Below are positions 7,151-64,000 of a stretch of DNA of 64,000 nt, one piece after another. Source of the stretch: Paenibacillus sp. E222 (lineage in GTDB: Bacteria; Bacillota; Bacilli; Paenibacillales; Paenibacillaceae); NCBI RefSeq assembly GCF_013401555.1, contig NZ_CP058552.1:5828001-5892000 (forward strand), given 5' to 3'. The notes beneath the pieces were generated by a model, which worked only from the letters and a program-made list of their open reading frames with translations, made no database searches and was not told the origin of the DNA. How positions within the stretch are numbered: the first letter of the stretch is position 1; every line of letters starts with the position of its first letter. The position numbers and the translations under genes are program-made.

Positions 7151-10100
7151 TTAGATACCTGTCCACACATCTTTGGCATAACGGCCTTCCTGCTGCAAAC
7201 GTTCTAACCACGCATCAGCTTGCTCCGCAGAGTTGCCGCTGACATCAACGTACGCCGTCTTAAGTGTTGCTTCAACATCAGGTGCCATCTTGCTGCCATC
7301 GCCGCAAACATACAGATGTCCACCCTGTTCGAGCAGAGGAATCAGTTTGTGCGCATCATCTCTCATTAGATGCTGCACGTAACATTTCTCTTCCCCGTCC
7401 ACACGGGAGAATGCGGTATGAAGCTGGACAAGACCCTCTTGCTCGGCTGTTTCGAGTTCATTTTTATACAAATAGTCATGTTCAGGGTTGCGACATCCAA
7501 AATACAGATGGGCCTCACCCACCTGCTGACCTTGTTCCTTCAATACACGTCTTGCCTGCAGGAAACCGCGGAATGGAGCCACACCCGTCCCCGGACCAAC
7601 CATAATGATTGGGGCCTCTGCATATTCCGGCAGTTCGAACCCGGACTCGGGCGTGCGTATGAACATGACTACCTCTTCACCCGGCTTCAGGTTCGCCAAA
7701 TAGTTGGACGCTATGCCTTTATATTCTCCCTGACCACTCCACGCCGGAGCACGAACTACGCTGACGGTTATGCTGGCCTGCTCAGGCTGCACTCGTGGTG
7801 AACTGGAGATTGAATAATATCGGGCTTTCAGGGAAGGCAGCAGTTCCAAAAACCGTTCAAAAGGCAGTTCACATGCTTCGTATTTTACCAAATAATCCAG
7901 CATGGATATCCGTTTCTTACGTACTTCTTCCATGTATACAGACTCATCAAGAAGTGCTTCGAGCTCCTTCTTATGCGGTGGACATACCGTGTACGCCGCG
8001 AGTTCCCTCAGTTGGGCCCGAGTTGCCGCTTCCTGAAGTTCCACACTGTGACTGAGCAGATCGACCAAATTAACCGGTTGGTGCAATGGCAGATGAGCGG
8101 CGCTGCGACCGGAGGCATCCAGAACCAGATGTTCCGTGCCTGTGAATCCATATCGTTTCAGTACTCGTTCTACGAGCTCAGGCGGGTTTTGCGGTAAAAT
8201 GCCCAGGTGATCGCCTTCCTTATACGTTGCGCCTTCAGGCAGTTTAATCTCCAGATGACGTGTGCTTCGTTCACTGCCCGCATCGTGAAGTTCCCGATTC
8301 TCAAGGAGTTCAGCAACATGTGCATCATACGTATCCGCGAGCGGCGTTACTGCCAGTCCGCTGACAAACTGTACAGACAAGGAGCTGCGCTCACTACCTG
8401 AGCTAGTGTTCAACTTGAGGCCCAGAGTTCGTGCCAGATCCGGCCATAGTTGCTCGGTCCAGTCTCCAACCTGTTTCTCAAAGTCCCCGCTGGCATCACT
8501 TTCTCCGATCGGTGATAACCGTTCTGCTCCTTTGGAAGATAACTGCTCATCAATCAATCGCGGGATACGCTGGTACGTGCTGGCCCAGTTGTGATCCCCA
8601 CATCCGAGAACAGAGAATCGAACCCCTTGGAATTCCCCTGCATCCGCATGTTCAATCCACTCGACGAAGTCTTTGGCATTGCTTGGTGGCTGACCATTGT
8701 AGGATGCACTCACAATGATGACGACGCCTTCCTTGGGCAGTTTGCCAACACGATCATCCAGAGTAGCAACCTCGCTGCGGAAACCTTGGTATCTTGCGGT
8801 ATCTGCGATTTCACGCGCAATGCCTTCCGCGGTCCCGAGATTGGAGCCATACAGGACGAGCATTGGGGTATGATGGGCATTTGCCGTATCCGGCTCTTGT
8901 CGTTTGGCCACCGGAGTTGGTTCCTCCACGGCAACACCCGGAACAGCCATGACTGGTTGACCCCCGCGTGCACGAACACGGATCGTGAAGTTATCGGGTT
9001 TGAGCGTCAGCGTTTCTTTCACTTTCAACTGATAGTCTGCATGATCGATGAAATCAAAATGCTTCAAAACCATGCCCAGCACAAGTGTTGCTTCCTGAAG
9101 GGCAAACTGCTGACCAATGCAGGCCCGCTGACCATTACCAAAAGGTTTATAGGCATCATGTGGCACCTTGCTCGGATCTTCAAACCGTTCCGGACGGAAT
9201 GCCTCCACATCGTCACCCCACGCATCGCGGTCCCGATGCAGCTTGGGAATGAGCACACTGACACTATCCCCTTTTTGCAAAGGATATTTACCGTCCAGAA
9301 CGATATCTTTCTTCGCGTATAAGGAGAATGCCGGAGCCGTAGGCCACAACCGCAATGCTTCATTCAAAACCATGCGAACATATTTCAGATTGCGAACCTG
9401 ATTGTATGTCGGGACCGGATCTTTCAGAATCTGATCTGCTTCAGCTTGAGCCTTGGCGAGTGTATCTGGATTTTTCATTAAATAATAGATGGCAAAGGAC
9501 AACAAGCCACTCGTCGTCTCATGTCCAGCAATCAGGAAGGTGATGATCTGGTAACGGATATTTTCATCGTCCAGCGTTTCCCCGGTTTCCGGGTCTTTCC
9601 CGCTAAGCATATGGGATAACAGATCGTCTGCCCCTTCCTGGGGCTGCTCCTTGCGCTCCGCAATAATATGATCCACCAGAGAGAACATCGAACGAATATC
9701 CTGCTCAAACTGTTTCTTCTTGGTGATCATCAGCTTGTCTTGTAGACGCAAACGCTGCAAAGAACTCATCGATTCGTCCAATGCCCGCACCATGCTGGTA
9801 ATGAAAGGATGGGGCTCTTCCCGATAAAAGCTGTTAAATCGATAGTTGAACCCACACAGTCCAATCGTATCCAGGGTGAGACGAGTCATATCATCGGGTA
9901 CGTTAACCGTCTCGTCCGGGTTCAATCTGGACCACTTCTGCACGAGCTGTACAGCGAGATCGATCATTTTATTGTGATACCCCTGCATCGCACGCTGGCT
10001 GAAGCTAGGCAGCAGCACATTGTGAGCTTTTTTCCAATTAGGTTCTTGTGTCCAGCTCGTAAACAGGCCATCCCCGGCAAATGCACGAACCTTCTCCAGC

Positions 10101-10324
10101 GGTGCCCATACACGTTTATCGAATTTGGATTCGTCGCTTACCTCGGCTACCAGTTCGTGACCTGATATATACAACTCACTTCGTCCAGGATACTCCATTC
10201 TAAAAATGGGTCCATACTCTTCAGCGAGTTTCACCAGGGATTGTACAGGCTCATCGGTATTTAACTGTGGTAAGTTTCCTAAAGGGCCAAAAGTTTTAGG
10301 TTGGGGAACTGAAATTTGCGCCAT
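7151..10324 (-). CDS. CYP102-type self-sufficient P450/NADPH reductase fusion
   Basis: A 1057-residue fusion closely related to P450 BM3 (CYP102A, ~1049 aa): a fatty-acid monooxygenase that takes electrons from NADPH through its own FAD/FMN reductase. Heme domain: I-helix AGHETTS about 265, ExxR in NEALR about 320, heme loop [13 protein letters not shown] about 394-406 with the cysteine ligand. Substrate-pocket residues equivalent to BM3 R47, Y51 and F87 are R48, Y52 and F88. Reductase: FMN loop [13 protein letters not shown] motif [13 protein letters not shown] motif [13 protein letters not shown]-terminal KDVWTG. ATG at 10324 has GAGGAG upstream; a start 11 codons earlier has none. Reaction inferred: subterminal hydroxylation of medium/long-chain fatty acids. 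No TetR-type BM3R1 repressor gene is adjacent. Confidence 0.95.
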
Positions 10325-10699
10325 AATACTCACTCCTCTTCCAAGTAATACGTTCAACTAAATAATACCTTCGTTCAATTAAGACTTCAGATCAACAGAC
10401 ATGCCTTCATTTTCTGCAAATTTTCATATTTCATCCAGATAACCTAAAAATCATTCTGGAACCAATTGACCGAAATAGTATATTGGTCATTTTAGAATAA
10501 AAAAAATGGGTTCCTTCGTTATCTCTCTTTTACCCTAACATTTCCAGTCCTAATCTTCAACAGTCTCAAAGTCGTAGGACCAATGGGTATCCATCCGAAT
10601 TGGCATGAGTAAAATTCCCTTTGGTCCATTAATATAAAAAATATTTAGCTCTGAACGAACACTAGAATTTTGAAGATACACAGTTCGCTCAAACTCAAA
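10325..10699. other. 375-bp intergenic region upstream of the P450 gene
   Basis: No gene is seen. The region holds a dyad at 10453-10498 and a second dyad GGACCAA (10577-10583) / TTGGTCC (10621-10627). Both contain ACCAA half-sites. It serves as the P450 promoter region and the downstream region of the peroxidase gene. Confidence 0.5.
10453..10498. promoter_or_regulatory. Dyad-symmetric operator candidate upstream of the P450 gene
   Basis: Two nested inverted repeats share one centre: ATTCT (10453-10457) / AGAAT (10494-10498) and ACCAAT (10461-10466) / ATTGGT (10482-10487). It sits ~130 bp before the P450 start, a plausible place for a TetR-type or other dimeric repressor. CYP102 genes are commonly fatty-acid inducible; the protein that would bind here is unknown. 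Confidence 0.4.
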
Positions 10700-11254
10700 C
10701 TAGGCCTGTCTCAGCAAATCCCGAATCGCGGACTCCATCGCTATCGGTGCAACTGTAGTCTCATAGCGGCCACTCACTTCCCCGGTTCGATCAATCAGAA
10801 ATTTGGTGAAATTCCATTTGATCCCGTCTCCCCGGTATAAATCGGGATGTTTCTCCTTGACGAATTGATCCATCCACCGACCTTCTTCCGACTCCATATC
10901 ATAACCTTCAAATGGGGCAGCTTCGACCAGATCGCGAAACACAGGGTGTATGGATTGTCCGGTAACCTCGATCTTCTCAAAAATCGGAAAGGATATATGA
11001 AAATGATTCCTGCAATACTGAGCTATCTCATCACTGCTGCCCGGCTCCTTGTGATTAAATTGATCACAGGGAAACGCCAGGATCTCCAGCCCTTGATCAC
11101 GATACTGCTCATACAGGTGCTGAAGCTCCGTAAATTGTCGAGAGTAACTGCACTTGCTGGCTGTATTCACAATAAGCAGCACCTTCCCCTCATAAACAGA
11201 TAAATCACCCGCGTGTCCATCCATAAATGGAACCTGATAAGAAAATATGCTCAT
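10700..11254 (-). CDS. Glutathione-peroxidase-fold thiol peroxidase
   Basis: Cytosolic 184-residue peroxidase of the GPx family, expected to reduce hydroperoxides with thioredoxin-like donors in a Firmicute that lacks glutathione. Motifs: LLIVNTASKC with the peroxidatic Cys about residue 35, ILAFPCDQF about 60-68, and WNFTKFLID near 145. ATG at 11254 is preceded by AAGGAGG at optimal spacing. It is a single gene after the lut operon. A second member of this family, with the same motifs but clearly different sequence, lies at 51240-51788. Confidence 0.9.
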   Translation of the reverse strand: MSIFSYQVPFMDGHAGDLSVYEGKVLLIVNTASKCSYSRQFTELQHLYEQYRDQGLEILAFPCDQFNHKEPGSSDEIAQYCRNHFHISFPIFEKIEVTGQSIHPVFRDLVEAAPFEGYDMESEEGRWMDQFVKEKHPDLYRGDGIKWNFTKFLIDRTGEVSGRYETTVAPIAMESAIRDLLRQA

Positions 11255-11439
11255 TCATAACGCCTCCTTGGTCGGGTCTCACATGAACCCTCTCTTGAAA
11301 TGGATTATACGCCGCTTCTCTTGATAGGTTAAATATATAATAATTATAATATTAATAGCCTTTATCTATAAAATATCTTATCTGCTGCCATATGATTAGA
11401 TGGCTCATTATCCTTTTCATATTGGACATACTAGACATA

Positions 11440-11484
11440 GAAAAACTGCCCTTCGCAGACAAAAAGGCTGCTTTTGGACAGTCA
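11440..11484 (-). terminator. Intrinsic terminator of the lut operon
   Basis: On the minus strand ACTGTCC pairs with GGGCAGT around an inner GCAG/CTGC stem, followed by TTTTTC. It lies ~30 bp after the stop of lutC. Confidence 0.65.
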
Positions 11485-11512
11485 TTCGTGAGGTGAAGCA
11501 TTTCGAATGGTG

Positions 11513-12238
11513 TTACCCCATAATAAGACCATAGACAATCCCCGGTCCATGTACCCCAATCGTCAAATCATTTTCAATATCGGAAGAACGACTGGGACCG
11601 GATATAAAATGAATGCCTGCGGGAAGATTCTCTCTTCCCGCTTCATCGAAGCGATCAAGCGTTTCACCGAGCCTGGTGTAGAGCCGTTCAATCGGAATAA
11701 TAATGATGAGTACGGTGGGCAATAGACTCACTGAGCGTCCCTTTTCTGGCGAAGAAAGCACCGTGACGGAACCCGTATATGCTGTTGCATAATCCGCCAT
11801 GACTACACCGATATCTGCCTCGGCTGCCCGTGCCTTCCAGTTCTCCTCTGCTTGGCTGTTCCATACAGAAATTTGCACATCGGGGAGTTGCTCTTCCAAT
11901 CCAAGTTCGGTCAGCGCCTGTTCATTCTGACGTATGATATATTTCGCGCTTAATTCATGAGATTTGTTAGCGATGAAATCCGAGGCTTCGCCAATGTCTC
12001 TTACCCGCGCAATATGAGCACCTACACTCACAAAATTATCGGTAAATGCCTGTATGCGCTTATCTATGTCCCAATCCAGATCCGTCCAGAATGCGGGTGC
12101 ACCGCGAAAAGGTTGAGTCGGAGCATGTGTCTTCCGTGGTCTTCTCAATTTGGACGCAATGTCATTCATAAAGTGTTCCTGCTTTGCACGGGACTTTTTC
12201 TCCATTTGCTCCAGCCATTCCTGATGTTCAGTGTTCAT
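11513..12238 (-). CDS. lutC: L-lactate utilization protein LutC
   Basis: 241-residue LUD-domain protein (DUF162), third component of the LutABC iron-sulfur complex that oxidises L-lactate to pyruvate. Visible: the N-terminal MEKKSRAKQEHF segment, then the conserved C-terminal block GRSVSLLPTVLIIIIP followed by FISGPSRSSDIENDLTIGVHGPG. ATG at 12238 overlaps the 3' end of lutB by 11 bases in another frame, indicating translational coupling; an in-frame start nine codons earlier is less likely. Function is assigned by family and by the intact A-B-C order. Confidence 0.93.
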   Translation of the reverse strand: MNTEHQEWLEQMEKKSRAKQEHFMNDIASKLRRPRKTHAPTQPFRGAPAFWTDLDWDIDKRIQAFTDNFVSVGAHIARVRDIGEASDFIANKSHELSAKYIIRQNEQALTELGLEEQLPDVQISVWNSQAEENWKARAAEADIGVVMADYATAYTGSVTVLSSPEKGRSVSLLPTVLIIIIPIERLYTRLGETLDRFDEAGRENLPAGIHFISGPSRSSDIENDLTIGVHGPGIVYGLIMG

Positions 12239-13745
12239 GTTGACCACCGCCCCCCTCGCGCTCACGCAGAATCTGTTCCATTCGGTCCCGAACGGAAGAA
12301 TCCATCTCTTTCTTCTCCTGATTCAGCTCCTGATCCAGCTTGTTCCATTGCTGCCGGAAGGAACGCTTCGCGAGGCTTGGCGCAACCCGATAGCTGTTCC
12401 AGCCCTTGAGTGGCCCAAGTTTAAGTGAAATTCCGTTATTCCGCACAACGGCTTTCTGACCAATCTGTCCAAGACGTATAGCCGCTCCGAAGCGTTTAGA
12501 ATTGGATACAACTGCTGCAAAACCTTTCATGCCAACACTCTCAAGCTTGTTGCCATGGCCCTCTTCCACCTTGCGTCTGCGTAAATATACGAGCATATCA
12601 TGCAGCGGAATTTTGACCGGACAGGCTTCATAACAGGCTCCGCACAGACTGGAAGCACCCGCAATGTCGTTCCATTCATCAATATTGCCATTGAGTGCAG
12701 GCGTAAGCACCGCTCCGATCGGTCCGCTGTAGGTTCCACCATAGGCATGCCCGCCGATATGACGATATACCGGACAAGCGTTCAGACAGGCCCCGCAGCG
12801 AATACAGTTCAACAGCTCCTGGAATTCGGGATCACCCAACTGGAGTGAACGTCCATTATCCACGATAATAATGTGCATTTCATCTGGTCCGTCCCCATCT
12901 TCTGTTCGACGAGGACCAGTTATGCCTGACATATACATCGTCAATTTTTGACCTGTCGCGGAGCGTGGCAGAAGGGTCGCCATCACCTCGAGATCCGTCC
13001 AAGATGGAATGATACGCTCCATGCCCATTAAGGTAATCTGTGTTTTTGGCACGGTGGATACCATGCGGGCATTGCCTTCATTTTCAAATAGGACCATGGA
13101 ACCCGTCTCCGCAATGGCAAAATTGCAGCCGGTCATGCCAATATCGGCTTCAAGAAACTTCTCCCGCAGCTTTTTACGTACAAATCCGGCAAGTACGGTG
13201 GTGTCCGGATCCAGAGTTTCACCCGCTTCCTTGGACAACAGGTCCGCAATCTGGTAACGGTTCTTGTGAATAGCCGGAATGACGATATGAGATGGAGCTT
13301 CACCCGCCAATTGAATGATGTATTCACCCAGATCGGTCTCTATCGCTTCAATACCTGCGGATTCCAATACATGATTGAGATGTACTTCCTCGGATACCAT
13401 CGACTTGGATTTCACCACGGTAGAAGCCTGCTTATGAGCCGCAATATCCAGTGCAATCGCCGCTGCCTCTGCCGAAGTATCGGCAAAATGAATATGAACC
13501 CCATTGGCGCGTGCATTATTGACGAATTCATTAAGGTAATAATCCAGATGTGCGATCGTATGCAGACGAATCTGACGTCCACGTTCACGCCATTCTTCCC
13601 AGTTGCCATGTTCTTCCGATGCAGACTTCTTGCCATTACGCAATCGCTCTGTCGTAAACTTGACGGCTTTCCGCAGGAAATCATCATTCAAAGCCAGTTC
13701 TGCACGTTCTTTGACGGTAACATCCATTACGCCGGGTTGACTCAT
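12228..13745 (-). CDS. lutB: L-lactate utilization iron-sulfur protein LutB
   Basis: 505-residue subunit combining a LUD domain with two ferredoxin-type [4Fe-4S] motifs, CIRCGACLNACPVYRHIGG and CGACYEACPVKIP, about residues 310-370. It is expected to pass electrons from lactate oxidation to the membrane chain. The N-terminal half includes GNWEEWRERGRQIRLHTIAHLDYY and GMTGCNFAIAETGS, both usual in LutB. Its ATG (13745) overlaps the lutA stop in ATGA, and its end overlaps lutC, so the three genes form one tightly coupled unit. Confidence 0.95.
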   Translation of the reverse strand: MSQPGVMDVTVKERAELALNDDFLRKAVKFTTERLRNGKKSASEEHGNWEEWRERGRQIRLHTIAHLDYYLNEFVNNARANGVHIHFADTSAEAAAIALDIAAHKQASTVVKSKSMVSEEVHLNHVLESAGIEAIETDLGEYIIQLAGEAPSHIVIPAIHKNRYQIADLLSKEAGETLDPDTTVLAGFVRKKLREKFLEADIGMTGCNFAIAETGSMVLFENEGNARMVSTVPKTQITLMGMERIIPSWTDLEVMATLLPRSATGQKLTMYMSGITGPRRTEDGDGPDEMHIIIVDNGRSLQLGDPEFQELLNCIRCGACLNACPVYRHIGGHAYGGTYSGPIGAVLTPALNGNIDEWNDIAGASSLCGACYEACPVKIPLHDMLVYLRRRKVEEGHGNKLESVGMKGFAAVVSNSKRFGAAIRLGQIGQKAVVRNNGISLKLGPLKGWNSYRVAPSLAKRSFRQQWNKLDQELNQEKKEMDSSVRDRMEQILREREGGGGQHEH

Positions 13746-55264: not shown

Positions 55265-56122
55265 TTATTCCGCTGCTTTTGATTGTAATATCTGATCATT
55301 CACAAATCCTTGTAAGAAGAAAAGCTCATTGTCATTCGCTGTTCGATTATTGGCTGCTTCAAAACGCTCGATCGCATCTTCTAATGACGTGGATTTCACA
55401 GCATCATTGGCTGAGATGAGCTCTCTCCAAAACGTATCCATCTCCTCCACGTCACAGATCGACTCATGACCAAGCAAGAAATGAACGGCATCATATTGCT
55501 GAATGTCCTCAATCATAGGCAATAACTTGTCTTGCTTAATATGATATAGCGAATTTGTAGTTGTGTTGTAAGCACTGTCCCCCAGAAAAATGACCTTTTC
55601 ATCCGGAATATACACAACTGTTGAATCATCCGTATGCGTACTTCGAATGGTTTCCAAAATACACACTTTATTTCCCAAATCCACATGAAGTGATTTTTCA
55701 AAAATGATATCCGGGTGGCTTAATTGAAAGGTTTCTCTGTCGGGTATTTCATGTTGTATCGTTTCCATGCATAGTGTGTTCATCTTCTTGGAATCCACAT
55801 ACTCCTGAAGAGAGCGGTCATCATAAGAATAGTTCCGCCAATCATTCATCTTTTGGTTAGTTAGACTATTCATAATAATCGTAGCTCCGTATTCATTCAT
55901 TCCTAAAAAATGATCCCAATGGGCATGAGTGATGACCACATATTTAACGGGTGGAACGTTTAACTTCTCTATTTCATGTAAGAAATCCCTGGCATGTTGA
56001 ACCGAATTTCCAGCGTCAACGACGAGGCTGTATTTATCACCGCAAACTAACCCCAATGTCGGTCTTTCTTTATCATTTTGGTTAGATAGATAATAGATGG
56101 TTTCACTTAATTGATTTAGCAT
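55265..56122 (-). CDS. MBL-fold metallo-hydrolase
   Basis: 285-residue metallo-beta-lactamase-fold enzyme: GDKYSLVVDAGNS, the zinc motif VITHAHWDHFLGMNEYG about residues 62-75, LETIRSTHTDDSTVVYIPDEKVIFLGD with the bridging Asp, and HFLLGHES with the last His. Substrate not evident; beta-lactamase-like, lactonase or other ester hydrolysis are possible. ATG at 56122 has GAGGAGA at good spacing. The reading frame continues 37 codons past the stop without interruption. Confidence 0.85.
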   Translation of the reverse strand: MLNQLSETIYYLSNQNDKERPTLGLVCGDKYSLVVDAGNSVQHARDFLHEIEKLNVPPVKYVVITHAHWDHFLGMNEYGATIIMNSLTNQKMNDWRNYSYDDRSLQEYVDSKKMNTLCMETIQHEIPDRETFQLSHPDIIFEKSLHVDLGNKVCILETIRSTHTDDSTVVYIPDEKVIFLGDSAYNTTTNSLYHIKQDKLLPMIEDIQQYDAVHFLLGHESICDVEEMDTFWRELISANDAVKSTSLEDAIERFEAANNRTANDNELFFLQGFVNDQILQSKAAE

Positions 56123-56440
56123 GTTCATTCTCCTCTATAATAAATTCTTGATCCATAAGAGAGAAAATCTGCATGCTTATTTAAATCAACATTTAGATTT
56201 TCTCATTTTATTTGTTTACCAATGGAATCACCTCCCTTGTTTACTCATGGATAGAAAATGTTAATTATATCCAAGCACTAAACGTTAGCTTAACTCATCT
56301 GATAAAAATATTCCATTAATTTTTCCTTATATGATAATTTCCACTCATAATTATAGGTAGCTCTAATGCAAAATAATCCCAAACCAAAAGGAGGATACAG
56401 GAAACTGTATCCCCCATCCTCCGTACAAGTCCGCCTTATT
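56123..56440. other. 318-bp intergenic region
   Basis: AT-rich, with no gene. It holds the promoter region of the MBL gene and, at its right end, the terminator of the polysaccharide locus. Confidence 0.6.
56388..56416 (-). terminator. Intrinsic terminator of the GH105 operon
   Basis: GGATACAG / CTGTATCC with loop GAAA and a CCTTTTGG tail on the minus strand, ~25 bp after the GH105 stop. Confidence 0.7.
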
Positions 56441-57511
56441 CTATTCGGCGGTTGGAACCCGCAAGCCCTCAATCAGGATAAACAACGTAAGTGCTTGTCC
56501 ATAACCCATCGGACTGATCGGTATATCTTTATAAAACTGAGCATCCTGCCCCACAGGTGTACCATAGGACACCTGCTGTACAACACCGTGATCATCAATT
56601 TGTTTCAACACCGCTTCAAGCGCACTCAAGCCATTCTGGCGATAGGATTCATCCAGGTATCCATACCGGATTCCCTTGAGAATGCCGTATCCAATCGCTG
56701 CTGTTGCCGAGGTTTCTTTGTAAGATGCGGGGTCATCCAGTACGGTGTGCCACATGCCATCCTCACCCTGAAGCTTGCTCAGTGCTCTTACTTGAGCGGT
56801 TGCTGTATCCAGCAGATAGGCCTTGAGCCCGTCTTCGATCGGAATGATATTCAGGAAATCCATAACTCCCGCCGTATACCATGCATTGCCCCTTCCCCAA
56901 TGAACAGCACCATAGTTATGATTTTCATTGAAATCCCAGCCATGATAGAACAATCCGGTTTTCTTGTTGTATAGATATTTGATATGCACAAGGAACTGTC
57001 GCTTTGCTTCTTCCACCATGTCCGGTTTCTTGAAGTATACCCCTGCCTTGGCCAAAAATAGCACCGTCATAAACAGGGTATCAATCAGAATTTGACCATC
57101 ATTGGCGTCTCCCGTGATCATATGCTGAAACGCACCATCTCCGGTTCGCAGCAGTCCATCCATGATCCAATTGCTCCACTCCTCACAGACATGTTCGTAC
57201 TCCCTGTTTCCGGTCAGCTCGCATAGTGAGATCAAAGTAAGGAGCGGAGCGCAGGTGTTCACATTTTTTTCCGGTAATCCTTCCATCAGCCTTGCATTGT
57301 ACCATGATTCGAGAAATTCCAGCACTTTGGCATCCTTCGTTGCCTCATGAAGTTGAAGCAAGCCATACAGACCGACACCTTGCGGCCATTCCCATAGATG
57401 TATGTCGATTAATCCGATTGGAAACTGTTCATTGATGCTTGTGTTTTTCATAGACTCCATCGCTTGGGATACCTTGCTTATTCTCTCCTGCAGCACCATT
57501 TGATTCGGCAT
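56441..57511 (-). CDS. GH105 unsaturated rhamnogalacturonyl/uronyl hydrolase
   Basis: 356-residue cytosolic (alpha/alpha)6 enzyme of the GH105 (YteR-like) family. It uses hydration of the 4,5-double bond left by polysaccharide lyases to release the terminal sugar. Motifs: HLWEWPQGVGLYGLLQL about residue 45, DGQILIDTLFMTVLFLAKAG with the catalytic Asp about 143 (as in YteR), VHWGRGNAWYTAGVMDFL about 205, and ETSATAAIGYGILKGIRYG. ATG at 57511 follows AAGGGAGTG; no signal peptide. Last gene of the operon, 35 bp after the 851-residue protein. Confidence 0.9.
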   Translation of the reverse strand: MPNQMVLQERISKVSQAMESMKNTSINEQFPIGLIDIHLWEWPQGVGLYGLLQLHEATKDAKVLEFLESWYNARLMEGLPEKNVNTCAPLLTLISLCELTGNREYEHVCEEWSNWIMDGLLRTGDGAFQHMITGDANDGQILIDTLFMTVLFLAKAGVYFKKPDMVEEAKRQFLVHIKYLYNKKTGLFYHGWDFNENHNYGAVHWGRGNAWYTAGVMDFLNIIPIEDGLKAYLLDTATAQVRALSKLQGEDGMWHTVLDDPASYKETSATAAIGYGILKGIRYGYLDESYRQNGLSALEAVLKQIDDHGVVQQVSYGTPVGQDAQFYKDIPISPMGYGQALTLFILIEGLRVPTAE

Positions 57512-57546
57512 GTTGGTTCTCACTCCCTTGGTTTCTTACACACGAT

Positions 57547-60102
57547 TCAGCGCTCCATGTCCAGTAACTTCAGTTGTCCCTTCACTCCATAACCTTCATG
57601 TACAATTTCCTTTTCTTGAATATGAAAAGGCTTGTTCATTCCCCATTGAATTGGACCATATACCGGGTCTGCTAGCGTGAGAGTTAAAGCTTGATTATCG
57701 AATTCCGGGCTGGCAGAACGAACTTGGTTGATAAAAGCGTCAAACGACCCGAATAGCTGTTCGCTTCCTGCTCTTATAATCCAGGCGTTACGCAAGCCAG
57801 GGGAAATAAGTTCGCGCTCTCTTGTCACTCCGTTGCTCTCCATACTCGTCCCGTTGGCCGCATATATGGCTGCATACCCCTTATCCAAACGGGCAAAATG
57901 CCAGTTCTCATGCTGTACCCATTCTGTGAAGGAGTGGGTAGGAAAATAAGCATGTGTCCAGTCAGCGGTCTGATCGGCAGGAATATCAAACATCATCAAA
58001 GCGATCCCTTCATGCTGAACAACATCGGGCAATATCCCATTCCCGGCCCAGAAGCAAGGCCGACCATCCCCATGCTTGTATATTTCTGCCGGATGATTCA
58101 CCCAAATCTGCGCCTCAGGTGACAGAGATAAATGCTGAACGTGCTCCTGATAACCTGGCTTGCCTGGACGAAAGCGAATGATTGATGATAAGGAGTATTC
58201 ATTTGTCCGAAAGTGATAGAGCTTGGCGTAACCTCCCTTGCCCTGCTGATTGGCGAACACCAATTGCTGATTTTCCCCAAGCAGCAGATGCTCCTGATAT
58301 GCTGCTGGAGGACTGTAATCCGATATACTCAAGGCAACATTACTGATTGAATAATTGTTTACATTGCCAACGCCATAAGCGATCCAGCACATGGAAGTCG
58401 TTCCCGCTGCATAACTACCCAGCAGTTCCTTCTCATAGCTGCGCCCAAACGTTGTGGACACGACACCTTGATGCATCTGAACGGTAATATAATAGAATAA
58501 CAGGTCCATTGCCTTTTTGGCTTGCTGCCTGAGCTGTTCATTATGGGCAAATTCATAGATATGCAGCAGCCCAACCGCATCAATCGGAATGTATGCACTT
58601 GAATTCCATTCTGCCAATCCTTCATCCAAAAAGCGCTCGAACCATAATGCAAGCCTCTGCTCTGCTTTTTGGCGATGTACTTCACCGGATTCACCACTGT
58701 TGCTGAATGTTTCATCCCCAAACAACTGTCCGGCTAACAGCTCATTGGTGTGGAACAACAAGGCATGGTTCTCACTGAAGAACCACATCACATCATCGCC
58801 AGGTTCATCAATCCAATATCGATAGCCCAGAATACTTGCTTTTACCCGATCCCAGAACAATTCACTGAACAGACCGCTATTTCGCTCATCTCTCCAAAGA
58901 CGGAACAGTCCCACCAGATAGAAGTCACTGCAATCCTTCCGTTGTTCAATCCCTTCCACACCTTCAAGCAGCATGTTCTCTGCTTCTTGCACATTGCCAT
59001 TTGTTTTTAACATGGCGATAGCCGTATGAATGTTAGGACTGCCCTTCTCAGCAATACATTGCAGAGCCAGAGATTTGCGTGCTTCAATATCCGCAGTTTG
59101 CTGAGCAGCCTCATCATAACTGGTATCGTAGGATTGACAGCCGAACTTCTTCGTCAATGCTACGTTTGAAACTGAAATCGTCAGCGTGAAGTATACGTAA
59201 TGATGACCAATTTCATTGGTATGTGCCAGAACCAGTTCCGTTTCCTTCTCAGCTATGTGTATTGTCTTGTTTTCGGTGCCATCAAAAAAATTGCCATACT
59301 GGATATCAATCTCTCTAACGATGTCCGGTAAGGGAAGCGGCAGCTTGAGCTTAATCTGCTCACCTCTGAAGAGATCCGAAGGAAAATAAGCCTGTTCGAG
59401 GGCTTGCTCTGCGGATTTTACAGACTCGGCCAAATGAGGAGCAATAGGCAGGGAAATCACCAATTCCTCGTCTCCCAGATATTCCACCGAAAAAGCATAC
59501 ATGGTATCCCGCTCAGCCAGATCCTCCCAGCAGGCATAGATTTCATTGATTCCGGCTACAAGTTCAGCTTTAATAACGATTTCCTGCTCCTTGTTACGCA
59601 TGAGTGGCGCAAAATCCGTTACCATTTCCCCATTCATCCACAACGTCAGACTGCCATAGGTCTTAATTCGCAAAGAGGCGGTATGAGCAGTCGGAGAAAT
59701 TAGTCTTGTCGCCGCGTAACTGCGCAGATGTGTCGGTACAAACCAGAATCCTGATTTCTCCACCCGTGGATTATTCCAAGGAGAATACAGTGCCCAAGGC
59801 ATTCCGTTCTCTTCTCCAACAAAGTCGTCTCCCGGGCTAGGAAACTCGCTCCATTGATCAAAAAATCGGTTCACAGGCTGCGTTCTCCTATGTTCTACAA
59901 ATTCCTTTCTGCATGGATTCTCATGAATAGCAAAACCATCGATAAGCCAATCATTAATATCTCCCTCCATCGTTGTGGGAACAAAGGCAACAGGCTTCGT
60001 ATATATACCGCTGATCATCCAATGATTAATGACCTGATTGTGACCTAATTTCATAGGTTTATAATTCAAGGTATCCATCTCACTCCGGGTGGTATCTGAC
60101 AT
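57547..60102 (-). CDS. Large uncharacterised protein, putative carbohydrate-active enzyme
   Basis: 851 residues, no signal peptide, not assigned to any family by eye. The first ~270 residues look beta-rich with a carbohydrate-module flavour (LRIKTYGSLTLWMNGEMV, a GH2-like sugar-binding phrase; EIVIKAELVAGINEIYACWED). About 350-620 is helical, with ENHALLFHTNELLAGQLFGDE, SSAYIPIDAVGLLHIYEFAHN and SYAAGTTSMCWIAYG, an (alpha/alpha)-toroid-like pattern. The end is again beta-rich (HYFRT-type strands, FHIQEKEIVHEG). It sits between a permease (5-bp gap) and GH105, so it probably acts on imported uronate-containing oligosaccharide. AAAGGATGAG precedes the ATG. A new lyase or hydrolase family is possible. 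Confidence 0.7.
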   Translation of the reverse strand: MSDTTRSEMDTLNYKPMKLGHNQVINHWMISGIYTKPVAFVPTTMEGDINDWLIDGFAIHENPCRKEFVEHRRTQPVNRFFDQWSEFPSPGDDFVGEENGMPWALYSPWNNPRVEKSGFWFVPTHLRSYAATRLISPTAHTASLRIKTYGSLTLWMNGEMVTDFAPLMRNKEQEIVIKAELVAGINEIYACWEDLAERDTMYAFSVEYLGDEELVISLPIAPHLAESVKSAEQALEQAYFPSDLFRGEQIKLKLPLPLPDIVREIDIQYGNFFDGTENKTIHIAEKETELVLAHTNEIGHHYVYFTLTISVSNVALTKKFGCQSYDTSYDEAAQQTADIEARKSLALQCIAEKGSPNIHTAIAMLKTNGNVQEAENMLLEGVEGIEQRKDCSDFYLVGLFRLWRDERNSGLFSELFWDRVKASILGYRYWIDEPGDDVMWFFSENHALLFHTNELLAGQLFGDETFSNSGESGEVHRQKAEQRLALWFERFLDEGLAEWNSSAYIPIDAVGLLHIYEFAHNEQLRQQAKKAMDLLFYYITVQMHQGVVSTTFGRSYEKELLGSYAAGTTSMCWIAYGVGNVNNYSISNVALSISDYSPPAAYQEHLLLGENQQLVFANQQGKGGYAKLYHFRTNEYSLSSIIRFRPGKPGYQEHVQHLSLSPEAQIWVNHPAEIYKHGDGRPCFWAGNGILPDVVQHEGIALMMFDIPADQTADWTHAYFPTHSFTEWVQHENWHFARLDKGYAAIYAANGTSMESNGVTRERELISPGLRNAWIIRAGSEQLFGSFDAFINQVRSASPEFDNQALTLTLADPVYGPIQWGMNKPFHIQEKEIVHEGYGVKGQLKLLDMER

Positions 60103-60107
60103 TCAAC

Positions 60108-60932
60108 TCATCCTTTCATTCCTGAAGTAATCATACCGCTGACAAAATATCGCTGGAAAACCATAAAAACAATCAGTACCGGAAGCATCGTGATTACGGA
60201 CATCGCTAGCAAACTTCCCCAATCTACGTTGTATTCACCAATAAAATTAGAAAGCGCAAGCTGAATCGTATATTTCGATGGATCACTAATAGCAATTAAC
60301 GGCCATACAAAATCATCCCATCTCCACATGAAGGAGAAGATCGCGAGCACCGCAAGAATCGGCTTCGCTATGGGTAGAATAATGCTCCAGTAAATTTTCC
60401 ATTCGCCCGCTCCATCCATCCGGGCAGCCTCCAGCAGCTCGTCCGGTACGGACAACAAATACTGCCGCATAAGGAATACACCTGTTGGGGTCGCTGCTGG
60501 CGGGATAATAATCGCGAGCAGACTATTATATAACCCCAGTGCGCTCAGCACCTTGAATATGGGAATCATGATTACCTCAATCGGAATCATGAGTGTTGAG
60601 ATAAAACCGATTAATATGATCGTGCTTCCGCGGAAGCGATACTTCGCGAGTGCAAAGCCTGCCATGGAATTGATCAATAACAGCAGCACCGTTGAGGACA
60701 CCGTTACAATCGTACTATTCATAAAATACAAGCCAAAATCGCCTTTCCTGAATGCCTCCTTGAAATGCTCGAAGGTGACGGGCTGCGGCCACAGCTTGGG
60801 TGGGAAACTATACAGATCGCTATTCGTTTTCAAAGCAGAAATCACGACCCACAGGACAGGCAGAAGCCACACCACGGCGGCGACACTTAACATACTGTAG
60901 ATGACAATTTTGACCATAGGCTTCATTACCAT
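60108..60932 (-). CDS. Sugar ABC transporter permease, MalG type
   Basis: 274-residue CUT1 permease: first helix IYSMLSVAAVVWLLPVLWVVIS, then LWPQPVTFEHFKEAF, EAA loop LLEAARMDGAGEWKIYWSIILP, and the end QRYFVSGMITSGMKG. ATG at 60932 overlaps the stop of the preceding permease in TGATG, with GGAGGGG as ribosome site, so the two are coupled. Transport partner of the binding protein at 61930. Confidence 0.94.
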   Translation of the reverse strand: MVMKPMVKIVIYSMLSVAAVVWLLPVLWVVISALKTNSDLYSFPPKLWPQPVTFEHFKEAFRKGDFGLYFMNSTIVTVSSTVLLLLINSMAGFALAKYRFRGSTIILIGFISTLMIPIEVIMIPIFKVLSALGLYNSLLAIIIPPAATPTGVFLMRQYLLSVPDELLEAARMDGAGEWKIYWSIILPIAKPILAVLAIFSFMWRWDDFVWPLIAISDPSKYTIQLALSNFIGEYNVDWGSLLAMSVITMLPVLIVFMVFQRYFVSGMITSGMKG

Positions 60933-61837
60933 CAGACAGCCCCTCCTTTCGATAGACGGAATTGCAGCGCCGAGAATCCGCCAATAAGGATAAACAGCAT
61001 CACCGACATGGCACTAGCCAGACCAAGCTCCTGTCTGTTAAAGCCGATCTCATAAATATATTGAACAATATAGGTGGTTTCTTTGCCCGGCCCACCACCT
61101 GTAAGCGCAAACATAAGTGGGAATGCTTTGAACGCGTCAATCAGAGTCAGCATCACAACAAGCAAGCTTGTGGGCTTCAAAAGCGGGAGCGTGATATAGC
61201 GGAACACCTTCATTCCCGTTGCCCCGTCCAAGCGGGCAGCCTCATAATAATCCGTAGGTATAGCCTGCAAGCCTGCAATAAAAATGACCATGAAAAAGCC
61301 TGCACGTGACCATACCGTCGCGATGATTACAGCCGTATTTGCCCAAAAGGAAGAGGTTAGAAAGCCGACCGGTTCCACACCAACCACGGTTAACAGATGA
61401 TTCAAGATGCCAAATGAATCTCCGAAAATCCACTTCCAGGTCAACCCTACGATAATGTAAGAAATCATGGTCGGCCAGTAAAATACGGCCCTGAAGAAAC
61501 CGCGCATTCTAATCTCGCGTGCAAGCAGTAAAGCAATGCCTAACGCTGCTGCATAGATTAGCGGGACAACAATTGCTGCATAAATCCCCGTTCGTCCGAT
61601 GGTCGACCAAAATTCCCGATCCCCTATAATTTTGATATAATTGTCCAGCCCGTTAAACTTCATTGGGTTCAATCCATCATAGACATGAAAGGAATAGTAG
61701 AGGCCCAATAAAGAGGGAAATACGATAAAAGTGCCAAAGATCAGGAGGTTGGGAAGTATAAACAGATAAGGAGCAATAACGAGCTTCCTGTTCTGTTTTG
61801 CCAGCGTATTCCTGTTTAATCGTTGTCCTTCACTCAT
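60932..61837 (-). CDS. Sugar ABC transporter permease, MalF/UgpA type
   Basis: 301-residue CUT1 permease with a basic cytosolic start (RLNRNTLAKQNRK), first helix APYLFILPNLLIFGTFIVFPS, EAA loop YYEAARLDGATGMKVFRYITLP and GGPGKETTYIVQYIYEIGF near the end. AAGGAAGGGG precedes the start. The gene is 92 bp after the binding-protein gene and overlaps the next permease by one base. Confidence 0.94.
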   Translation of the reverse strand: MSEGQRLNRNTLAKQNRKLVIAPYLFILPNLLIFGTFIVFPSLLGLYYSFHVYDGLNPMKFNGLDNYIKIIGDREFWSTIGRTGIYAAIVVPLIYAAALGIALLLAREIRMRGFFRAVFYWPTMISYIIVGLTWKWIFGDSFGILNHLLTVVGVEPVGFLTSSFWANTAVIIATVWSRAGFFMVIFIAGLQAIPTDYYEAARLDGATGMKVFRYITLPLLKPTSLLVVMLTLIDAFKAFPLMFALTGGGPGKETTYIVQYIYEIGFNRQELGLASAMSVMLFILIGGFSALQFRLSKGGAV

Positions 61838-61929: not shown

Positions 61930-63201
61930 TTATTGACTGCCAATAGCCTCATTAATCAGTTTGGCTGTTCGATCCAAAGCCTCCTGCGGAGTTGCCTTGT
62001 CAGACAGAACGTCCATAATATTATTTTTCAAATCCGTTGAAATTTTGGATATAAGCGTTTGCCTAGACCAGTCATTCGCTGCAAGAGGCGAACTGTTCTT
62101 CAGTTCATCTGCGAAAATTTCAAACATCTCCTTGCCAAATTCATAATTCAGCACAGAGCTGTCCTTCCGTGGACTCATGAACAACGACTCCTGATTGTAT
62201 TTGGAATTCACCTCTTTGGACGTTAGATATTCAATAAATTCTGCCGCTTCCTTCTCATAACCACTGCCTTCGAAAGCCATCAGGAACTTGCCGCCTGGCA
62301 CGGAAGAACGTTGAGTTTCTTTCGGCATATAAGTGACGCCCCATTCAAAGTCGGTGATATCCTTGTAATTGCTGATCATCCAGTTGCCAGCCCAGTGAGT
62401 AGCCACCGTTCCGGAACGGAACAGGTTGTTCGGATTTTCCCCTCCGAGCCAAACGGATTCGGGCATGATCCCTTCTTGATGAAGCTGCTTGAACTTCTCC
62501 ATGGCACGGATTCCGGCTTCATTGTTAATGGCCGCCGCACTGCCATCCTCTGTTAAGATGCTTCCACCATACTGGTACAAAAGAGTGGACCATCGATGCG
62601 GTGTGACATCCCATACCATGCCATATCGTGCCCCGCCTTTGTCCATAACCTCTTTTAACGCAGCGGTGTATTCATCCCACGTCCATACCTGGTCAGGAGA
62701 GGTCGGTACTTTGACACCCGCTTTATCAAATAAGGTTTTGTTATAAATAAGCCCATTCGCTGTGACATCCATAGGCGCAGCTACCAGCTTGTCATTCATA
62801 ACATAATAAGGTTTAAGGGAGTCAATAAATTGATCCTTGAATTGATCCGCATTGCCCATGTAAGGTGTAAGATCAACGGCCTGATTAGCAAACGATCCCG
62901 TATCCGTGACCCGACTCAGGGCAGGAGGCTTTCCGCCGGATAACATCGTTTTCAATTTGGTTTGGATATCCTTGAAGCCGACTTCAATGAGATTGATCTT
63001 AACCTGGGTGTTGGTCTGCTCATAATCTTTGATGATTTCCTTGATGACTTCTCCTTCTTTTCCGTCAGAGAACCACAAGAAATCCAGAGTTGCTTGTTTT
63101 CCATTGGCACTTGTACCTGAATTCCCGCAAGCAGTCAGCACGATGAGTAACATGACCAATACCATGCTAGTGATGAGCTTAAACGTTGTTCTTCTTGTCA
63201 T
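61930..63201 (-). CDS. Sugar ABC transporter substrate-binding lipoprotein
   Basis: 423-residue family 1 binding protein. Signal MTRRTTFKLITSMVLVMLLI leading to lipobox LTAC. Mature motifs: LDFLWFSDGKEGEVIKEIIKD, MLSGGKPPALSRVTDTG, YNKTLFDKAGVKVPTSPDQVWTW. ATG at 63201 with AAGGAGATG is chosen since it gives the signal peptide; an upstream in-frame start would overlap the regulator gene. The ligand is expected to be the oligosaccharide that GH105 and the 851-residue protein process. Confidence 0.94.
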   Translation of the reverse strand: MTRRTTFKLITSMVLVMLLIVLTACGNSGTSANGKQATLDFLWFSDGKEGEVIKEIIKDYEQTNTQVKINLIEVGFKDIQTKLKTMLSGGKPPALSRVTDTGSFANQAVDLTPYMGNADQFKDQFIDSLKPYYVMNDKLVAAPMDVTANGLIYNKTLFDKAGVKVPTSPDQVWTWDEYTAALKEVMDKGGARYGMVWDVTPHRWSTLLYQYGGSILTEDGSAAAINNEAGIRAMEKFKQLHQEGIMPESVWLGGENPNNLFRSGTVATHWAGNWMISNYKDITDFEWGVTYMPKETQRSSVPGGKFLMAFEGSGYEKEAAEFIEYLTSKEVNSKYNQESLFMSPRKDSSVLNYEFGKEMFEIFADELKNSSPLAANDWSRQTLISKISTDLKNNIMDVLSDKATPQEALDRTAKLINEAIGSQ

Positions 63202-63223
63202 ATCAACATCTCCTTGGAAGGGT

Positions 63224-64000
63224 TTAATGAATTTGGGCTTCCTTAAGCAATTCACTTTTACGGAATACCTGTGGTGATACACCCACATATTGTTTAAAGG
63301 CCCTGCTAAAATATACCGGTGTGTTAAAGCCTAGTGTCTCTGATATGGACAAGATCGGCGCATCCGTAGACAGCAACATTTTTTTGGCCTCAGCAACTCT
63401 TTTCCGTATTACATAATTGCTTATCGTATATCCCGTCGTCTCTTTGAAAGAATGACAAATGTAGTACTTATTCAAATGGAGTGTTTTGGACAAGTCATCC
63501 AAAGATACATTCTCCGTGTAGTTCTGGTTTAAATAATGAAGAACCCGGCTTACGCTTGTCTGCTTTTGGGAAGAAAATAAAATATCATTTACGGATCGCT
63601 CACTGGTCATTTTCCGATAAATCCGCAGTAGCAATTGGGTAAGACTCAATTTGACCATGGTTTTGTATCCTGTATTTCCGGCATCCATCTCCTCTTTGAT
63701 CCCCTTAAATATACCTGTGATATGCTCACGTTCCTCCGGGGGCCAATGCACCAATAACCCATTGGGATGACGGAATATGGACATCAGATTCTCCAACTGA
63801 CTGACAGCAAGCATGTCCAAAAGCAATAATTCCGTGAAATTGACGAAACTTCGCTTGTACACGATTTCTCTTGAAGGATTGATTCGGTGCGGCACACCGC
63901 CTCTGAATATAAACATATCTCCGGGCAACGGCTTATATATTCGGTCACCGATTAAAAAGGTTGCATCTCCTTGAATAAAATAATGTATCTCATACCCATT
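63224..64000 (-). CDS. AraC-family regulator, 5' partial
   Basis: The frame is open to the window edge (259 codons seen). The visible N-terminal part is a cupin (YEIHYFIQGDATFLIGDR, PGDMFIFRGGVPHRI), the end a double HTH: LDDLSKTLHLNKYYICHSFK and ISETLGFNTPVYFSRAFKQ, finishing VSPQVFRKSELL. It precedes, on the same strand, the binding protein (22 bp), permeases and two enzymes, and is probably their activator. A cupin that senses the imported sugar would explain the arrangement. Confidence 0.92.
   Translation of the reverse strand, partial: NGYEIHYFIQGDATFLIGDRIYKPLPGDMFIFRGGVPHRINPSREIVYKRSFVNFTELLLLDMLAVSQLENLMSIFRHPNGLLVHWPPEEREHITGIFKGIKEEMDAGNTGYKTMVKLSLTQLLLRIYRKMTSERSVNDILFSSQKQTSVSRVLHYLNQNYTENVSLDDLSKTLHLNKYYICHSFKETTGYTISNYVIRKRVAEAKKMLLSTDAPILSISETLGFNTPVYFSRAFKQYVGVSPQVFRKSELLKEAQIH

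Follow-up and report, generated by a model that had tools for sequence, protein, structure and literature searches.

What does the large protein encoded between a sugar permease and a GH105 enzyme do in Paenibacillus sp. E222? We analysed a 64,000-nucleotide stretch of this genome (NZ_CP058552.1, positions 5,828,001 to 5,892,000; hereafter the window), in which an earlier sequence-only reading had pointed out an 851-residue protein at 57547..60102 and suggested a new type of intracellular lyase, hydrolase or phosphorylase. The open reading frame (ORF) has an ATG start and lies on the minus strand, which that reading had left unstated. It is a real gene and not a chance ORF, because it is conserved across phyla; read in a single frame, the plus strand of 57547-60102 is interrupted by many stops. 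Judged by its predicted fold and an Asn-His/Tyr/His pattern, the choice narrows to a lyase, with a hydrolase disfavoured. We consider it likely that the protein is a cytoplasmic beta-eliminating lyase making unsaturated uronides that GH105 finishes. The cytosolic location proposed earlier agrees with the hydropathy profile, the sole criterion used, which shows no signal peptide-like stretch: its maximum within residues 1-45 is 0.86.

Predicted fold and conserved residues

The earlier reading had recognised no family in the protein, and neither Pfam nor NCBIfam yielded a single match with the E-value limit set at 1. When 40 family members were compared with all models, the best E-values were 0.022 (Pfam) and 0.047 (NCBIfam), and PA14 was the model matched by most members (7/40, best E 0.036). 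A single-sequence search of the PDB gave one match (E 2.5); a profile search gave six weak matches, the best being the anti-sigma factor RsgI3 (E 0.021) over the N-terminal domain. Together, the PA14 and RsgI3 matches suggest at most a weak PA14-like signal in this domain. A literature search by title, largely without subscription journals, found no title naming the protein. The comparisons that support the novelty proposed earlier are those with Pfam, NCBIfam, sequences in the PDB and alignment profiles only, and CAZy may already have assigned the protein a family number.

Two AlphaFold models (pLDDT 91 and 94.5) predict an N-terminal jelly roll followed by a helical toroid and a beta-sandwich, which fits the beta-rich ends and helical middle described in the sequence-only reading. 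The catalytic half (residues 328-851; 57547..59121, minus strand) has the helical toroid and then the antiparallel beta-sandwich of the clan that comprises polysaccharide lyase (PL) families PL8, PL12, PL15, PL17, PL21, PL23, PL35 and PL39, as far as a predicted model can tell. Among the matches listed by VIA-align for this half, 49 of 50 rows were uronate lyases of the toroid/sandwich fold, although many rows repeat one enzyme, and the best lyase in Foldseek had an E-value of 4e-5. A match to one of the (alpha/alpha)6 clans of lyases or hydrolases had been named earlier as support for the proposed enzyme; such a match was obtained, to lyases and at a distance: similarity to the toroid lyases is low (TM 0.25-0.38, rmsd 5-8 Å). 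In profile comparisons, the probability was 0.4% against PL15 (alignment A3, which 3a0o matches at 918 bits) and 0.05% against PL12-like heparinase II/III proteins (alignment A2). Given the low TM-scores and non-matching profiles, the protein is at most a distant member of the clan, and not a PL12 or PL15 enzyme.

The same comparisons bear on two other readings. First, the protein could be a glycoside hydrolase built on an (alpha/alpha)6 core and supplying GH105 with exposed uronyl ends. The N-terminal jelly roll (residues 20-212; 59467..60045, minus strand), where relatives carry the weak PA14 signal, resembles the sugar-binding N-domain of GH2, and further down the Foldseek list come GH127/GH146 beta-L-arabinofuranosidases, along with other hydrolases of the (alpha/alpha)6 type. 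The arabinofuranosidase rows have E-values of only 6e-3 to 0.1, however, and the 50 VIA-align rows listed include no hydrolase. Moreover, to our knowledge the GH105 enzymes characterised to date require a 4,5-unsaturated end, which a hydrolase would not make, and we regard this reading as improbable. Second, the remaining VIA-align row listed is dermatan sulfate epimerase, raising the idea of a uronyl C5-epimerase of the same fold. The absence of a signal peptide-like stretch speaks against it, as does the protein's place in catabolic operons that hold GH105 and also, for 5 of the 10 regions opened (see below), KduI/KduD; an epimerase is very improbable.

We aligned 40 sequences (alignment A1) and found 31 columns invariant in all rows, including Asn445, His446, Tyr504, Asn669 and His670. 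Asn445-His446 (58765..58770) is the proposed carboxylate neutraliser, and Tyr504 (58591..58593) and His670 in the beta domain (58093..58095) are the proposed catalytic residues, all encoded on the minus strand. These four are also kept in six alphaproteobacterial sequences and one archaeal sequence; Asn669 is replaced by Ser in Thioclava. An invariant polar cluster of this kind argues against a non-catalytic binding or regulatory protein, which the resemblance of the N-domain to a sugar-binding domain might otherwise suggest and which we consider hardly credible.

The accessible part of PMC12088678 gives the catalytic residues of clan members as Asn240/Tyr294/His424 (PL12), Asn336/Tyr390/His555 with His337 (PL15 exoHep), Asn201/Tyr258/His413 (PL17), Asn192/Tyr246/His401 (PL35) and Asn186/Tyr239/His405 with His187 (PL39). 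For PL15 Atu3025 and PL21, Table 4 of that source lists no Asn, and the residue preceding the His was used instead. We compared spacings over the invariant Asn, Tyr and His residues with limits of 50-62 (Asn-Tyr) and 125-170 (Tyr-His), the residues having been chosen beforehand. The set 445/504/670 was the only one within these limits, with spacings of 59 and 166; known lyases have 53-57 and 130-166, so that the Asn-Tyr spacing here lies slightly outside their range. The order of Asn/His neutraliser, Tyr and His is therefore that of the clan and their spacing is close to it, as a sequence pattern only. By fold and residues together, the 851-residue protein looks like a clan lyase.

We infer beta-elimination as well as what each residue does and which substrate is used. 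The neighbouring ABC transporter would import an oligosaccharide containing a 4-O-substituted uronic acid, which would bind in the cleft between the helical toroid and the beta-sandwich. Asn445 and His446 would neutralise the carboxylate of the uronate; abstraction of the C5 proton and protonation of the O4 leaving group would fall to His670 and Tyr504. The resulting 4,5-unsaturated uronyl end would then be removed by the co-transcribed GH105, and its product routed via KduI/KduD. The accessible part of PMC4765187 proposes Asn201 and His202 as neutralisers, Tyr258 as acid and Tyr450 as base in Alg17c, and describes mutants of its relative Smlt2602 that favour His as base; the catalytic base is therefore debated even in these lyases.

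The operon and the GH105 partner

All genes of the operon lie on the minus strand, in the order AraC regulator, lipoprotein binding protein, two permeases, 851-residue ORF and GH105. The AraC-family regulator (63224..64000) is truncated by the window end and has 305 residues in the genome. The lipoprotein sugar-binding protein (61930..63288; true start probably an internal Met near 63201) has a hydrophobic stretch ending in LTAC, a lipoprotein-type signal. It is followed by the sugar ABC permeases at 60932..61837 and 60108..60932; these assignments rest on Pfam matches, and the earlier description of the operon, with its AraC regulator and lipoprotein binding protein, is confirmed. We also found the reported 5 bp between the permease and the 851-residue ORF. 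The reported 35 bp to GH105 (56441..57523) is the distance to an ATG four codons inside the gene, whereas the gap to its GTG start is 23 bp. We infer that the ORF is co-transcribed with its neighbours. The GH105 protein, a predicted unsaturated uronyl hydrolase, matches PF07470 (294.1 bits, cut-off 26.6) and NCBIfam NF051900 (435.9 bits, cut-off 420). We could not derive a substrate from the binding protein, as its PDB relatives are too varied. Downstream of the operon lies a metallo-beta-lactamase-fold hydrolase (Pfam; 55265-56128) with no established link to it.

To place this arrangement among relatives, we scanned one genome per species with short exact patterns, which gave 84 relatives and 79 loci that were kept. 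A hidden Markov model built from GH105 neighbours detected GH105 in 65/79 loci; in 58/79 it is a same-strand neighbour no more than 300 bp away. Counted among these 58 are L082, where the two are fused, and L074, where the true start is masked by a long overlapping frame. Many loci are closely related, and in clusters at 70% identity GH105 is adjacent in 25/39 and present anywhere in 29/39. As a background, the 12 PF07470 matches in the window's 7.52-Mb genome lead one to expect GH105 in about 3% of random 18-kb stretches. Of the 14 loci without GH105, five (L029, L065, L086, L088 and L089) stop a short way from the gene. On the metagenome-assembled contig L082, a single frame of 1161 residues (8962-12447) joins a family protein (14-820) to GH105 (812-1160); nine consecutive A where the two meet make a sequencing slip a possible cause of this joint frame.

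In a set of 59 genomes, NF051900 scored over its cut-off in 19, including all 14 with a full-length 851-residue protein, at neighbouring coordinates; 13 of these 14 belong to one genus, so they represent few independent events. Five genomes have GH105 of the NF051900 clade without the 851-residue protein. Conversely, for the members in three distant Bacillota genomes the 8-18 kb taken contain no GH105, and the wider family therefore does more than partner GH105. NCBIfam names this GH88/GH105 clade 'beta-galactosidase BglB' (the window's GH105 protein, L096 and L170), which may be misleading given its frequent proposed-lyase partner and the Kdu enzymes in some loci. We note that L170 (G009:C19:146000-163000) holds an NF051900-like GH105 (358 bits, below the cut-off) flanked by iolD and iolG-iolB within an operon for myo-inositol (iolC, mmsA, iolD, GH105, iolG, iolB) that lacks the 851-residue protein; the substrate of this GH105 is possibly a uronyl-inositol.

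Candidate substrates

We opened 10 regions around relatives for neighbouring pathway genes, two of them in records without annotation; the family's large proteins are annotated as hypothetical in all eight annotated regions. Operons in Phyllobacterium and two Shinella contain, in this order, GH88/105, kduI, the family protein, an ABC transporter and kduD, and in Thioclava and Pseudosulfitobacter kduI and kduD stand beside the family protein. KduI/KduD are thus present in 5 of the 10 regions. R. johnstonii and R. binae have the family protein, GH88/105, GH28 and an ABC transporter, with neither kduI nor kduD in the stretch. The R. johnstonii GH28 matches NF051861, 'polygalacturonase PglB' (708 bits, cut-off 600), and is presumably orthologous to PglB of Agrobacterium C58, which according to the accessible part of PMC6683767 takes part in polygalacturonic acid degradation. 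A KduI homologue (46% identity) is encoded elsewhere in the genome that contains the window. Because rhizobial relatives share an operon with a PglB-type polygalacturonase, and because GH28 and Kdu enzymes occur near relatives, pectic galacturonide oligosaccharides are our leading candidate for the substrate, if a tentative one that falls short of even confidence. P. amylolyticus 27C64 carries the locus (L024); its GH105 (40.6 kDa) could not be matched to the rhamnogalacturonan-induced pamy_5356 (39.2 kDa) of the accessible parts of PMC6339884 and PMC7267202.

An enzyme of the same class might instead act on uronyl-polyol conjugates (uronic acid joined to glycerol, with an alpha-linked hexose as a possible addition), lipid head groups for example, and not on pectin. 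Glycerol-use genes occur in 6/79 loci from several genera (L032, L037, L062, L063, L077 and L085): GlpK in L037, L077 and L085, all over the NCBIfam equivalog cut-off; a GlpD/GlpO relative in L032, L037 and L077; a glycerol-3-phosphate-oxidase-like pair in L063 and L085; and GldA with DhaKL in L062, over subfamily cut-offs. GH31, whose best PDB relative is a candidate alpha-glycosidase, is present in 14/79 loci, among them 5 of the 6 glycerol loci (Fisher p 4.8e-4; by 70%-identity clusters, 4/8 versus 1/31, p 0.004). The NF051900-like GH105 inside the myo-inositol operon of G009 is a further hint, though it lacks the 851-residue protein. Against this, tblastn with glycerol genes found none in the other 73/79 loci within the stretches examined, and we noticed none in the window's own locus. 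In addition, the GlpD-like and oxidase-like matches fall under model cut-offs, L063 fits L-2-hydroxyglutarate oxidase about equally, and the rhizobial operons indicate pectin. We therefore consider uronyl-polyol substrates unlikely. Somewhat less likely still is a fuller version, in which the protein would found a lyase family new to the searched databases and act on uronyl-glycerol (uronyl-inositol in sister loci), with lyase, GH105 and GH31 recycling glycolipid head groups and passing glycerol to GlpK/GlpD.

Distribution and comparison with known lyases

The family spans Bacillota, spirochaetes, Proteobacteria and the haloarchaeon Haladaptatus. The 79 loci include Paenibacillus, Cohnella, Neobacillus, Gracilibacillus, Lacrimispora, Hungatella and spirochaetes, and a plasmid tblastn search gave 200 records, 123 of them from Rhizobium, 40 from Pseudosulfitobacter, 3 from Haladaptatus and one from a Photobacterium. 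The protein occurs in 15 of the 59 genomes (own included; 14 as full-length copies, plus G036, where it is split in two) and in 5 of 398 genomes spread over the phylum (own included). This distribution is patchy, as expected of an accessory catabolic trait.

Some loci have further features. Two or more members stand in tandem in L070, L090, L091 and L156, and the first L156 member has an N-terminal membrane-anchor-like segment. On a Treponema-assigned contig, a 777-residue protein (L078:6575-8908) directly precedes a family member and matches neither Pfam nor NCBIfam at E limits of 1e-5 and 1e-30, respectively. A short archaeal member on a Haladaptatus plasmid (L102) lies amid GNAT, DegT and Gfo/Idh/MocA genes, with no GH105, GH28, kduI or kduD among the annotated genes of the stretch; it perhaps has a different role, possibly in surface polysaccharide.

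If the lyase reading of the 851-residue protein is correct, it would add a family of lyases found in rhizobia, paenibacilli, Lachnospiraceae, spirochaetes and marine bacteria, probably for feeding on plant or algal polysaccharides. It would also explain the source of unsaturated ends for one GH105 clade and call the NCBI name 'beta-galactosidase' into question.

PL12 heparinase III (5jmd, 4mmh) and the PL15, PL17, PL35 and PL39 enzymes have in common an (alpha/alpha) toroid and an antiparallel beta-sandwich, and they share with the 851-residue protein the Asn(-His)/Tyr/His order at nearly equal spacing. The protein differs from them in its additional N-terminal jelly roll and second beta domain and in lacking a signal peptide-like stretch, and neither the PL12-like and PL15 sets nor PDB lyases resemble it detectably in sequence or profile. 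GH105/GH88 enzymes share its operon, yet are separate enzymes acting after the lyase. PL22 oligogalacturonate lyase is cytoplasmic and feeds KduI/KduD. The role we propose is alike, but the 851-residue protein has no match to the PL22 Pfam model (PF14583). None of the 15 protein-bearing genomes has PL22, which is itself found in only 4/59, and this gives no evidence that one replaces the other. We also considered PL26, a possible three-domain analogue, and found no Pfam match to it in the protein. The gum arabic rhamnose-glucuronate lyase belongs to PL42 and has a beta-propeller fold, unlike the fold predicted for the 851-residue protein. As described in the accessible part of PMC8377490, that lyase likewise makes an unsaturated uronyl end.
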